Part shown: piece by piece, positions 17,778 to 21,736 of the stretch
Numbering within the stretch: position 1 is the first letter of the stretch
Layout of the letters: every line of letters begins with the position of its first letter
From: Treponema sp.
GTDB taxonomy: Bacteria > Spirochaetota > Spirochaetia > Treponematales > Breznakiellaceae
Direction of reading: 5' to 3'
Length of the DNA stretch: 64,000 nt
Assembly (NCBI GenBank): GCA_009784975.1
Contig: WQXG01000001.1
Location: 62,001 to 126,000, forward strand
Position numbers and translations under genes: made by a program
The notes under the pieces: model-generated
What the model saw: the letters and a program-made list of their open reading frames with translations, nothing else
Database searches by the model: none
Told to the model about the DNA's origin: nothing

Positions 17778-20243
17778 ATGAAGAATAAAAGAAGTCTATT
17801 TATTTTTGTTTTAATCATAATATTATGTGCAAATTTATTAACTTGTCAAAACCCAATAATGGAAACATGGTGGGGCGATGGAACAAGCAGCGGAGATTGC
17901 GTAAATGATGAAGTCGAAAAAAGCGGTGAGAATTTTGCAATCGTAGTTTTTAACACAGACGGCGGAATAACGGATGACGGAACAATGCCGCTGCCAATAA
18001 GGGTGCTCTGGGGTAACAATATTCCCAGAATTCGGGCTATTGGAAAAGGTATAGAATTTGGTTTTGCAGGCTGGATGGATGAAAGCGGTACTTTGTGGGA
18101 TTTTGAAACAAGGACAGTAAAACCGGAAGACGATGTGAATGAAGATGGTTTTATTACTCTTACAGCCAAATGGAGCCTTGTTACATTTACTGTTTCTTTT
18201 ACAGAAAATTACGAAGCGTTTTTTGCGGAGCCAAAAAATCAAAATGGTGATATTATAAAAATTAAAGATCAGATTATTGCTATCGGCTGCAAAGTCAGCG
18301 AACCTCCTGTAATTCCGACAGGAACAGGGCATGGGTTAGTCGGTTGGTATACGGAAAACGGTACTCATAATGATCATGATACAGGCGAGACCGGCGGTTG
18401 GGGAAGAAAATGGGATTTTACAAATGATGAAGTTTCTGCAGATATTACTCTTTATGCCAGATGGAGCCTTTATACCCGCACTGTACATTTGCAGGTGAAT
18501 GGCGGAACTCGTCCGGGGCCAAGCATTCCGCCGATGGAAATTACGCGTGTTAATTTTACTATCTTTACCGGTCTGGACGGCAATAGCGGCGGCGTTATTA
18601 TTGACCCCGGTCCGATTGCCAGAGATGGTTATACATTCGGCGGCTGGTATACAAGTTTGGCTTTTACCGATGAATGGTTTTTTACCAGAAAATTGTATGA
18701 AGTAGATGAGACTGATCATGGAATAATGCTTAAAGATCCGTTTACCCTTTATGCAAAATGGGTTCCCAATATTTACACCGTAACGCTTAATGCGAATGAA
18801 GGTTCTCCCACTTTAAGTTCTCAGGCTGTTACGCACGGTGAAAGAGTTATAAAGCCGAATATTTCCGGTTCTCCCGGCAGAGTTATAGAAGGCTGGTATA
18901 CCATTAACGGCCTCAATAACGATGACGATTGGGGTACAAAATGGAACTTTGATACTAATGTTGTTACTAAAACAATGACTCTGTTTGCAAAATGGGAAGA
19001 TGCAACCTATGAAATTAGATTTCATTTGGGATCTCCGCCTACAGATACGTACACTTTGCCTTTTCCCATGCTTGCTGTTCCCGATGTCCAGTATGTAAGA
19101 CCGAGTGATAAAGTTACCGAACCTTTTATGCCGCAAAGGACTCCGCCTCCTCTGCCTGCAGAAGCAACAAGCTGGTCTTTTTACCGTTGGGAATATCATA
19201 CAACTCAGCATAGCGCACCGGTTGATGTAAACGCTTCGGGTTTCAGAAGCGGTCTTGCGCCATGGGATTTTGACTGGATTATATCTGCTCACGAAGATAA
19301 ACTTGATTTTTTCGCAACCGATACTGACGCTTCTGCAGTTTTAAATATCTATGCAAGCTGGGTTCCTCCTGTTCCCGGCATGATATGGGTTCCAAGAGGA
19401 AGTTTTATAATGGGTGAGTCCGGTGTATCTGGCAGCCCTGCGATCCTTCACGCTTATCCGACCCGCGTAGTAACTTTGGATGGTTTTTATATAAGCAGGT
19501 CTCTTGTAACACAAAAAGAATATAAGGATTTAATGGAAACTGACCCGCTTAGTTTACTTGATAAAGATGGTGTTACTATGAGAACAATAATGGTTGATCC
19601 CAGTAATACAAAAGGAAATACCAATCCGGTAGAAAGAGTGTCATGGTATGATGCGATTAGATATTGTAATTTGCTTTCCGATCAAGATGGATTATCTGAA
19701 GTTTATGAAGCAGAATATATAAACGCTGCTTTAATACCGCCTACTGCGCCTGTTACTAACTATAATTCTATATCTTTAGCAGCAATTAATAATGTAACCT
19801 GGACTGCCAGCGGCTACCGCCTGCCCACCGAAGCTGAATGGGAATATGCGGCAAAGGGCGGAAGCGGCATGGGACCATACCTAACCTACTCAGGAAGCAA
19901 TGATGCAAGTCTTGTTGCATGGTTTAATACCAATAGTTCCGGCAGAACTCATCCTGTCAATATGATGACCCCCAATAATCTGGGTATATATGACATGAGC
20001 GGAAATGTCAGCGAATGGTGCTGGGACGCGCTTGAGGCATATAAAAACCTGACAGCTAATACTTTAAATCCCAGAGTTGGTAATATTCCAATAAGTGCCG
20101 GTGTCCAGCGTATCAGGCGCGGCGGGGCATGGAGTAACACAATGGCTAATGTGAGGACAGTTGTGCGTAACAGCGACACTCCCGATACCGCTCACTGGGC
20201 TATCGGTTTCCGTGTTGTACGCGGTCCGGCAGGAGAATGGTAA
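17778..20243 (+). CDS. lipoprotein with InlB-type (Listeria-Bacteroides) repeats and C-terminal formylglycine-generating-enzyme (SUMF1)-like domain
   Basis: Lipobox LLTC; repeated GWYT..G....WDF....V..d.TLYAKW; GMIWVPRGSFIMGE...GYRLPTEAEWEYAAKGG...NVSEWCWD...RRGGAWSN...GFRVVRG. Confidence 0.88.
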   Translation: MKNKRSLFIFVLIIILCANLLTCQNPIMETWWGDGTSSGDCVNDEVEKSGENFAIVVFNTDGGITDDGTMPLPIRVLWGNNIPRIRAIGKGIEFGFAGWMDESGTLWDFETRTVKPEDDVNEDGFITLTAKWSLVTFTVSFTENYEAFFAEPKNQNGDIIKIKDQIIAIGCKVSEPPVIPTGTGHGLVGWYTENGTHNDHDTGETGGWGRKWDFTNDEVSADITLYARWSLYTRTVHLQVNGGTRPGPSIPPMEITRVNFTIFTGLDGNSGGVIIDPGPIARDGYTFGGWYTSLAFTDEWFFTRKLYEVDETDHGIMLKDPFTLYAKWVPNIYTVTLNANEGSPTLSSQAVTHGERVIKPNISGSPGRVIEGWYTINGLNNDDDWGTKWNFDTNVVTKTMTLFAKWEDATYEIRFHLGSPPTDTYTLPFPMLAVPDVQYVRPSDKVTEPFMPQRTPPPLPAEATSWSFYRWEYHTTQHSAPVDVNASGFRSGLAPWDFDWIISAHEDKLDFFATDTDASAVLNIYASWVPPVPGMIWVPRGSFIMGESGVSGSPAILHAYPTRVVTLDGFYISRSLVTQKEYKDLMETDPLSLLDKDGVTMRTIMVDPSNTKGNTNPVERVSWYDAIRYCNLLSDQDGLSEVYEAEYINAALIPPTAPVTNYNSISLAAINNVTWTASGYRLPTEAEWEYAAKGGSGMGPYLTYSGSNDASLVAWFNTNSSGRTHPVNMMTPNNLGIYDMSGNVSEWCWDALEAYKNLTANTLNPRVGNIPISAGVQRIRRGGAWSNTMANVRTVVRNSDTPDTAHWAIGFRVVRGPAGEW

Positions 20244-20261: not shown

Positions 20262-20290
20262 TTGACAAAACATCGTAATTTTTATATGTT
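20262..20290 (+). promoter_or_regulatory. sigma70-like promoter of the attenuator/MFS unit
   Basis: TTGACA 20262-20267, 17-bp spacer, TATGTT 20285-20290. Confidence 0.6.
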
Positions 20291-20332
20291 TGTAAGACCG
20301 AAGTATTTCGGATACAGTTTTGGAGGTTTACC

Positions 20333-20407
20333 GTGTTGAACAACCGTGTTGCAATTATTATTAACATTCTCGTTATTACACGACCGGTTGTCGGTAGGGT
20401 ACGCTGA
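20333..20407 (+). CDS. putative branched-chain amino-acid leader peptide VLNNRVAIIINILVITRPVVGRVR
   Basis: SD ggagg (20322-20326) then GTG, 24 codons, TGA; 12 of 23 non-initiator residues are I/V/L; followed by antiterminator/terminator structures. Confidence 0.75.
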   Translation: MLNNRVAIIINILVITRPVVGRVR

Positions 20408-20450
20408 GACTGTTAAAAAGCGGCAAAAGCGTGCGCTCGCGGCAATCGGT
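20383..20450 (+). promoter_or_regulatory. putative antiterminator helix (20383-20404 with 20429-20450)
   Basis: Hand pairing gives 19 bp (several G-U) in a 22-nt arm with three mismatches; overlaps the 5' arm of the terminator. Confidence 0.65.
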
Positions 20451-20478
20451 AAAATGGTTGCTGCGGGCGCTTTTTTTT
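20433..20478 (+). terminator. intrinsic terminator/attenuator upstream of MFS gene
   Basis: 13-bp stem gcgctcgcggcaa / ttgctgcgggcgc (two G-U) followed by TTTTTTTT (20471-20478). Confidence 0.85.
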
Positions 20479-20500
20479 GCTTTAATCAAAGGAGTCCATT

Positions 20501-21736
20501 ATGGACACAATGACGAGCCGCGCCAGGTTTTATCCTGTGCTTGCGGCAATTGCTATTCAGCTAACGCTCGGGATAGCTTACATTTGGAGCGTTTTTCAGA
20601 CAGGCGTCGCTAACAGTATTTTCGGCGGCGACAATGCAGCGGCAGGGCTTACGTTTTCTCTTCTGCTTGCCACGCTGACTATCGGAAGCGTGTTTGGCGG
20701 CAAATTGGCTGTCAGGTATTCTACCCGCCTTGTTGTGTTTATCGGCGGTATTATTTTAAGCGCAGGTTTTTTTCTCGCTTCTTTTGTAACGGCTGCCAAT
20801 TCATGGCTGTTATGGATTACCTACGGGGTTATGGGCGGTATTGGCATGGGGTTTACTTATTCCACTACAATTGCCTGCGCCCAAAAATGGTTTCCGCATA
20901 AAAAAGGATTTGTTACAGGGATTATCGTTTCTGCGCTTGGGTTCGGCGGAGTCGTGTTTACGCCGATTGTTGAAAGATCAATCATTCATTTTGGCGGTGC
21001 AGGTTTTGGGGAACCAAAAACTTTTATAGTTCTTAGTGTTGTATTTCTGGTTGTTTGTTCCATAGGCAGTATTTTTCTTAAAAACCCTTCCGGTGAATAC
21101 ATGGCAAAATATGCTGTTTCAAACGCTTCTGCGGTAAAAATCGTAAAAGATTATACGCCGTCAGAAATGCTTAAGAAACCTCAATTTTATTTTATAGTTT
21201 TTTCTTACATGCTTGCATGTATGGGCGGACTTATGATGATTGGTTTCGCAAAACCCATTGCGGTATCAAAGGGGCTTGTTGAAACCGCTACCATCGGTGT
21301 TCTTGCAATTTCCATGTTTAATTCGCTCGGGCGTCTGCTTTGGGGTTTGATTTCAGATAAAATCGGAAGAAAAAATACGATTATTATTCTGCTTACCGGA
21401 AACGCCATACTTTCTCTTTTTGTAACAGCGGCAAACGGTTACCTTATTTATGTATTGATTGCCTTAATCGGGTTTTTCTACGGCGGGCTTATAAGCACAT
21501 TCCCGTCGCTGACAGCCGACACTTTCGGCGCGAAACACATGGCAACGAACTATGGATTTGTGCTGCTGGGTTTTGGCGCCGGCGCTATTATTTCTTCTCA
21601 GATTGCGGGGACATTCAAAAATATTGCAGCAGATGATGTTACTCTTATGTTCCCGGCATTTGTAATCGCTTCCTGCTGCGCTGCTGCCGGAATTATTATG
21701 ATGTTTGTTTTAAAGGTTATGGCAAAACGAGCCTGA
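20501..21736 (+). CDS. MFS transporter, OFA (oxalate/formate antiporter)-like family
   Basis: 12-TM MFS; GIGMGFTYSTTIACAQKWFPHKKGFVTGIIVSALGFGG; SD ggag. Confidence 0.85.
   Translation: MDTMTSRARFYPVLAAIAIQLTLGIAYIWSVFQTGVANSIFGGDNAAAGLTFSLLLATLTIGSVFGGKLAVRYSTRLVVFIGGIILSAGFFLASFVTAANSWLLWITYGVMGGIGMGFTYSTTIACAQKWFPHKKGFVTGIIVSALGFGGVVFTPIVERSIIHFGGAGFGEPKTFIVLSVVFLVVCSIGSIFLKNPSGEYMAKYAVSNASAVKIVKDYTPSEMLKKPQFYFIVFSYMLACMGGLMMIGFAKPIAVSKGLVETATIGVLAISMFNSLGRLLWGLISDKIGRKNTIIILLTGNAILSLFVTAANGYLIYVLIALIGFFYGGLISTFPSLTADTFGAKHMATNYGFVLLGFGAGAIISSQIAGTFKNIAADDVTLMFPAFVIASCCAAAGIIMMFVLKVMAKRA

Follow-up and report, generated by a model that had tools for sequence, protein, structure and literature searches.

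A 217-nucleotide segment, positions 20262-20478 of the window (the whole 64,000-nucleotide stretch of Treponema DNA that was analysed), is very probably a classical ribosome-mediated transcription attenuator controlling an MFS transporter gene. Computational analysis of four sequences, the window leader and three homologues, supports this reading. Our confidence in attenuation is high; that Ile, Val and Leu are the sensed signal can be put forward with moderate confidence.

In the proposed mechanism, RNA polymerase would transcribe the leader while a ribosome translates a short open reading frame (ORF). With ample charged Ile, Val and Leu tRNAs, the ribosome would reach the stop codon and cover segment 2, the terminator (3:4) would form, and transcription would stop before the MFS gene. 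With these tRNAs scarce, the ribosome would stall in the Ile/Val/Leu block, leaving segment 2 free to pair with segment 3 (2:3), and the MFS gene would be transcribed. If the leader were untranslated, segment 1, comprising the Shine-Dalgarno (SD) region and the first codons, would pair with segment 2 and termination would be the default. The Ile/Val/Leu codons would presumably be relevant to the MFS gene itself. The features are as follows.

20262-20290, + strand: sigma-70-type promoter, TTGACA (20262-20267), spacer N17, TATGTT (20285-20290); 10 of 12 consensus positions; position and sequence alike in the G021 and G007 homologues
20298-20311, + strand: CCGAAGTATTTCGG, a short hairpin or palindrome where the transcript is expected to begin; same in three of the four leaders (window, L014, L004)
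20314-20351, + strand: segment 1, 5' strand of the protector helix (1:2), taking in the SD and codons 1-6
20322-20326, + strand: SD sequence GGAGG of the leader ORF; kept in all four leaders
20333-20407, + strand: leader peptide ORF, V/MLNNRVAIIINILVITRPVVGRVR, from GTG (20333) to TGA (20405-20407); frame and C-terminal region retained in homologues
20354-20377, + strand: control codons Ile Ile Ile Asn Ile Leu Val Ile; their end coincides with the boundary of the antiterminator switch
20380-20413, + strand: segment 2, the last part of the ORF plus the sequence after its stop codon; pairs with segment 1 (1:2) and, via 20383-20405, with segment 3 (2:3)
20428-20450, + strand: segment 3, 3' strand of the antiterminator, overlapping the 5' arm of the terminator; 2:3 duplex of -34.3 kcal/mol
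20433-20478, + strand: intrinsic terminator, stem-loop 20433-20470 and U8 at 20471-20478; segment 4 forms the 3' arm; 5 of 14 pairs show compensatory changes
20501-21736, + strand: controlled gene, an MFS transporter of the SfMCT/OFA-type monocarboxylate family

Leader architecture and ribosome-dependent folding

An earlier sequence-only reading had claimed a promoter, an SD-preceded ORF rich in Ile, Val and Leu, and a terminator competing with an antiterminator, and each of these elements is confirmed where it was placed. The promoter is present as described, but promoter-like matches are equally frequent in shuffled sequence. The SD and the ORF are likewise confirmed; the ORF encodes VLNNRVAIIINILVITRPVVGRVR, in which 12 of 23 non-initiator residues are Ile, Val or Leu. 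Translation may instead begin at TTG 20336, yielding MNNR... with 11 of 22 such residues, since the homologous peptides of G021 and G012 begin with MNN. Among the 44 SD-preceded ORFs of 20-40 codons in the window, the leader ORF has the highest Ile/Val/Leu share, and a share of at least 50% occurs in about 1% of the 1108 short ORFs of the whole window. The terminator, with its U8 tract, lies between the leader ORF and the MFS gene as claimed, but its stem comprises 16 bp rather than 13. The competing pairing was also borne out: 20383-20405 and 20428-20450 form a 20-bp antiterminator that is mutually exclusive with the terminator, and when the 3' ORF segment was shuffled with its dinucleotide content kept, 0 of 1000 versions paired equally well with the terminator arm.

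The fold of the whole leader transcript has a z-score of -4.9 against shuffles. Two findings go beyond the sequence-only reading: a protector helix, 1:2, and a second use of the leader unit, before another gene. In every one of the four copies the protector helix lies between -33 and -35 kcal/mol; in the window (-33 kcal/mol) 3 of 1000 shuffles are as good, and in each of the three homologues none of 1000. The antiterminator exceeds shuffles in three of the four copies (G021, 1 of 1000 as good; G012, 4 of 1000) and stands at chance level in G007 (380 of 1000). Across the four-copy alignment, 2:3 pairing is retained in 84% of cells. The covariation expected in both helices was found in the terminator but not, beyond shuffles of the four copies, in the antiterminator. 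A search with Rfam covariance models, including the T-box riboswitch, gave no match to the leader.

The effect of translation was modelled by setting a ribosome at each codon in turn, with the RNA transcribed to just beyond segment 3 and the SD region occupied. For the window leader, antiterminator probability was about 0.83 with the A site anywhere in codons 0-11, fell to 0.59 at the last Ile codon (13) and 0.2 at Pro16, and was 0 at the stop codon. The predicted logic, in which a stall on the Ile/Val codons turns the gene on and arrival at the stop codon turns it off, is thereby reproduced in silico. In three leaders of 23, 36 and 31 codons, the switch boundary falls at the end of the Ile/Val/Leu block; the probability drops at the last control codons, which are Ile26 in G021 and Ile18-Ile20 in G012. 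In G007, it reaches a maximum of about 0.65 at codons 17-20 and is 0.32 at the Trp codons 15 and 16. None of 150 codon-order shuffles of the window leader gave the switch. At equilibrium, the full-length RNA always favours the terminator over the antiterminator; therefore, the choice must be kinetic and made during transcription, a property that the window leader shares with classical attenuators. When the 5' end was left free, helix 1:2 opened in G007 and G012 only if a second ribosome sat at the start, and we assume that such an initiating ribosome keeps segment 1 open in these two leaders.

Two further observations concern the surroundings of the leader. The CCGAAGTATTTCGG element was not found in the G012 leader when the four were compared, and it could represent a 5' stabilising hairpin or an operator palindrome. 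Directly 5' of the leader, the region 17778-20243 encodes List_Bact repeats, a C-terminal sulfatase-modifying-factor domain and a lipoprotein-like N-terminus.

Homologous leaders and the copy before trpB

The leader is single-copy in the window genome (G000; Treponema, 2.6 Mb). A pattern scan of GTDB genomes returned 38 stretches, only three of which possess the terminator, all in Treponema (the MAGs Emb289P3bin52, Pal332_bin4 and Crp329_bin9). From their isolate names and general knowledge, we take these MAGs to be of termite-gut origin. A covariance model built from the four copies was used to search 40 genomes of the genus, 203 of the family and 396 of the order, and exactly the four known copies scored above the level of ordinary terminators. 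Weaker matches (G203, G244, G126, G201, G273, G157, G059, G219, G115, G207, G235 and G343) were, where read, ordinary terminators or chance, with no such leader. BLAST searches with the G007 and G012 leaders gave fragments that, where inspected, proved to be coding sequence, ribosome-binding sites or ordinary promoters. Viral contigs yielded two pattern matches, which were rejected as they lack the terminator, and a search of plasmids gave no leader match.

In G021 and G012, the leader stands 5' of the orthologous MFS gene, and the genes around the leader-MFS pair differ among these two genomes and the window genome. Their leader peptides (MNNQNRVLNGFIRSEATLAFIIALFLITRTVVHRSV in G021 and MNNRIRRVILILSIIGLIILIYRLSAGKRQN in G012) are both rich in Ile, Val and Leu and differ from the window peptide. 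The expectation that homologous loci conserve an Ile/Val/Leu-rich ORF in frame thus holds for the copies before MFS genes, but most MFS orthologues have no leader: it is absent from 9 of the 12 close ones, one of which is a contig-end fragment.

The G007 leader is 70% identical to the window leader over the whole promoter-to-terminator segment (E 1.6e-19). It precedes a trpB-like gene, trpB_rel (TIGR01415, over cut-off), unrelated to the MFS gene, and its control codons match that gene: the peptide MISRSFVPASVLSFSWWRPITTRMIVGGVG carries a Trp-Trp doublet, which fits the prediction for a codon-reading attenuator. Such a doublet occurs in 0 of the 1108 short ORFs of the window, and about 27 other trpB upstream regions contain no Trp-doublet leader. 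TrpA was not found in the G007 genome; thus, its TrpB-like enzyme plausibly synthesises Trp from indole that the cell takes up, in keeping with control by Trp. TrpA is missing in 15 of 40 genus genomes, and G000, G007 and G012 each have a solitary TrpB-like enzyme and no TrpA. The window genome's own trpB (L070, about 1400-1500) differs from that of G007: a promoter-like sequence of the TTGACA type is present, but no attenuator.

A comparison with G003 bears on how this copy arose. The gene upstream of trpB in G007 has its counterpart in G003 (84% identity across 497 residues), where trpB comes next and the gap of about 32 nt between the two contains no leader; the corresponding gap in G007 spans about 380 nt. 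Because the gene order is the same around so short a gap, the simplest reading suggested by these sequences is that a promoter-leader-terminator unit was inserted in G007, with loss elsewhere as the alternative. It is an even call whether this unit is transplantable, having moved between unrelated genes of termite-gut Treponema and been re-specified from Ile/Val/Leu to Trp. The prospects are similarly balanced for re-specification by replacement of the control codons with the RNA framework kept, for which the evidence is one Trp copy. Between the G007 terminator and trpB (L004 1732-1860) lies an SD with a very short ORF, MNDTS-stop, whose sequence recalls the N-terminus of the window MFS protein (MDTMTS); we offer only as a suggestion that it might be a relic of the source gene start. 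This ORF is followed by an AT-rich hairpin (AATCGAATGTTATTCGATT), a T-rich stretch and the trpB SD, possibly a second, weak terminator.

Alternative readings of the leader

The ORF might instead encode a small single-span membrane protein, its Ile/Val/Leu block being a transmembrane segment and the hairpin an ordinary small-gene terminator with some read-through. The G012, G021 and window peptides do resemble short membrane spans with basic ends. However, the G007 peptide does not resemble a membrane span and, standing before trpB, carries the Trp doublet; within the ORF, conservation falls on the stretches that take part in helices 1:2 and 2:3, whereas the hydrophobic centre differs between copies in both length and sequence; and the mutually exclusive helices exceed shuffles. 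Taken together, these points make a membrane protein improbable. A leader that senses ribosome stalling in general, such as that caused by translation-inhibiting antibiotics, and induces an exporter in place of responding to Ile/Val/Leu supply, is a somewhat less likely explanation still. The bmrCD exporter of Bacillus subtilis is induced via a stalling-sensing attenuator, the gene considered here encodes an MFS transporter, and any stall at codons 0-13 would expose segment 2. Yet the transporter groups with the SfMCT/OFA monocarboxylate proteins and not with a drug-efflux group, and the peptides are rich in Ile, Val and Leu in all three MFS copies, with the Trp doublet in the trpB copy.

Lastly, the terminator and antiterminator could be governed by a ligand or protein, as in a riboswitch or through an RNA-binding protein, with the ORF incidental. 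The strong leader structures do fold without any ribosome, but no Rfam family matched, and ORF, SD and frame are retained in four copies of unequal length while the control codons change with the downstream gene. This we consider the least probable of the alternatives, and ribosome-mediated attenuation remains the preferred reading.

The probable target transporter and relation to known attenuators

Against the L-lactate transporter model NF049980, which has a cut-off of 320 bits, the window MFS protein reaches 315 and its G021 orthologue passes with 327. The nearest solved structures are SfMCT and OxlT, in both of which an arginine aligns with Arg278; we take this residue to be the TM8 Arg that binds carboxylate. 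KARI (IlvC) was not found in any of the four leader genomes and is absent in 36 of 40 genus genomes, absences to be read, like those of TrpA, against MAG completeness (G000, 95%; G021, 99%; G007, 94%; G012, 82%). Each leader genome has one PF01063 aminotransferase, which is IlvE in G000 and G007 (over cut-off). As KARI is missing, IlvE is present and the transporter is of monocarboxylate type with the TM8 Arg, the MFS protein may supply Ile, Val and Leu or branched-chain acid precursors; we infer that the substrates it imports are branched-chain amino acids, the corresponding 2-oxo acids or branched short-chain fatty acids. In rumen fermentation, branched short-chain fatty acids are precursors of Val, Ile and Leu (PMC7356843). 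The literature yielded nothing usable on a need of Treponema for branched short-chain acids.

Ribosome-mediated attenuators of the ilv/leu type are well known from enterobacteria (ilvGMEDA, ilvB and leuABCD). The Treponema leader shares with them a short ORF rich in branched-chain codons, 1:2, 2:3 and 3:4 helices, and termination by default; unlike them, it occurs in another phylum, matches no Rfam leader family and precedes a transporter gene rather than biosynthetic genes. In Listeria monocytogenes, the Rli60 leader of the ilv-leu operon also combines a BCAA-rich leader peptide with a terminator and antiterminator, and start-codon or RBS mutants show super-attenuation; it differs from the Treponema leader in its 13-residue peptide, biosynthetic operon and Firmicute host (PMC5864092). 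T-box elements changed specificity through duplication and divergence and offer a parallel, in that a regulatory unit came to stand before other genes with a codon for a new amino acid, but they bind uncharged tRNA directly, whereas the Treponema sensor would be a translated peptide (PMC2494555). In bacilli, a His leader peptide is common to hisS* and hisZ, another case of one leader-peptide attenuator before two genes; there the amino acid is the same and the genes are paralogues, in contrast to Ile/Val/Leu versus Trp and unrelated genes in Treponema (PMC2965389). According to a 2010 survey, leader-peptide attenuators were known only in Proteobacteria and Actinobacteria, to which the survey added Firmicutes (PMC2965389). 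No description of one in spirochaetes was found in the literature searched, coverage of which is incomplete. The mechanism is classical; within that literature, what is new is the phylum, the kind of target (a monocarboxylate-type transporter) and the apparent second use of one leader framework, its control codons replaced, in front of an unrelated gene.

If the transplant is true, it would be a leader-peptide counterpart of T-box re-specification, and the pair of leaders before the MFS gene and trpB would provide a natural example of an attenuator changing its amino-acid specificity. If the attenuator reading is right, the control codons would hint directly at what the otherwise ambiguous MFS transporter carries, as well as at the in vivo role of the solitary TrpB-like enzyme.
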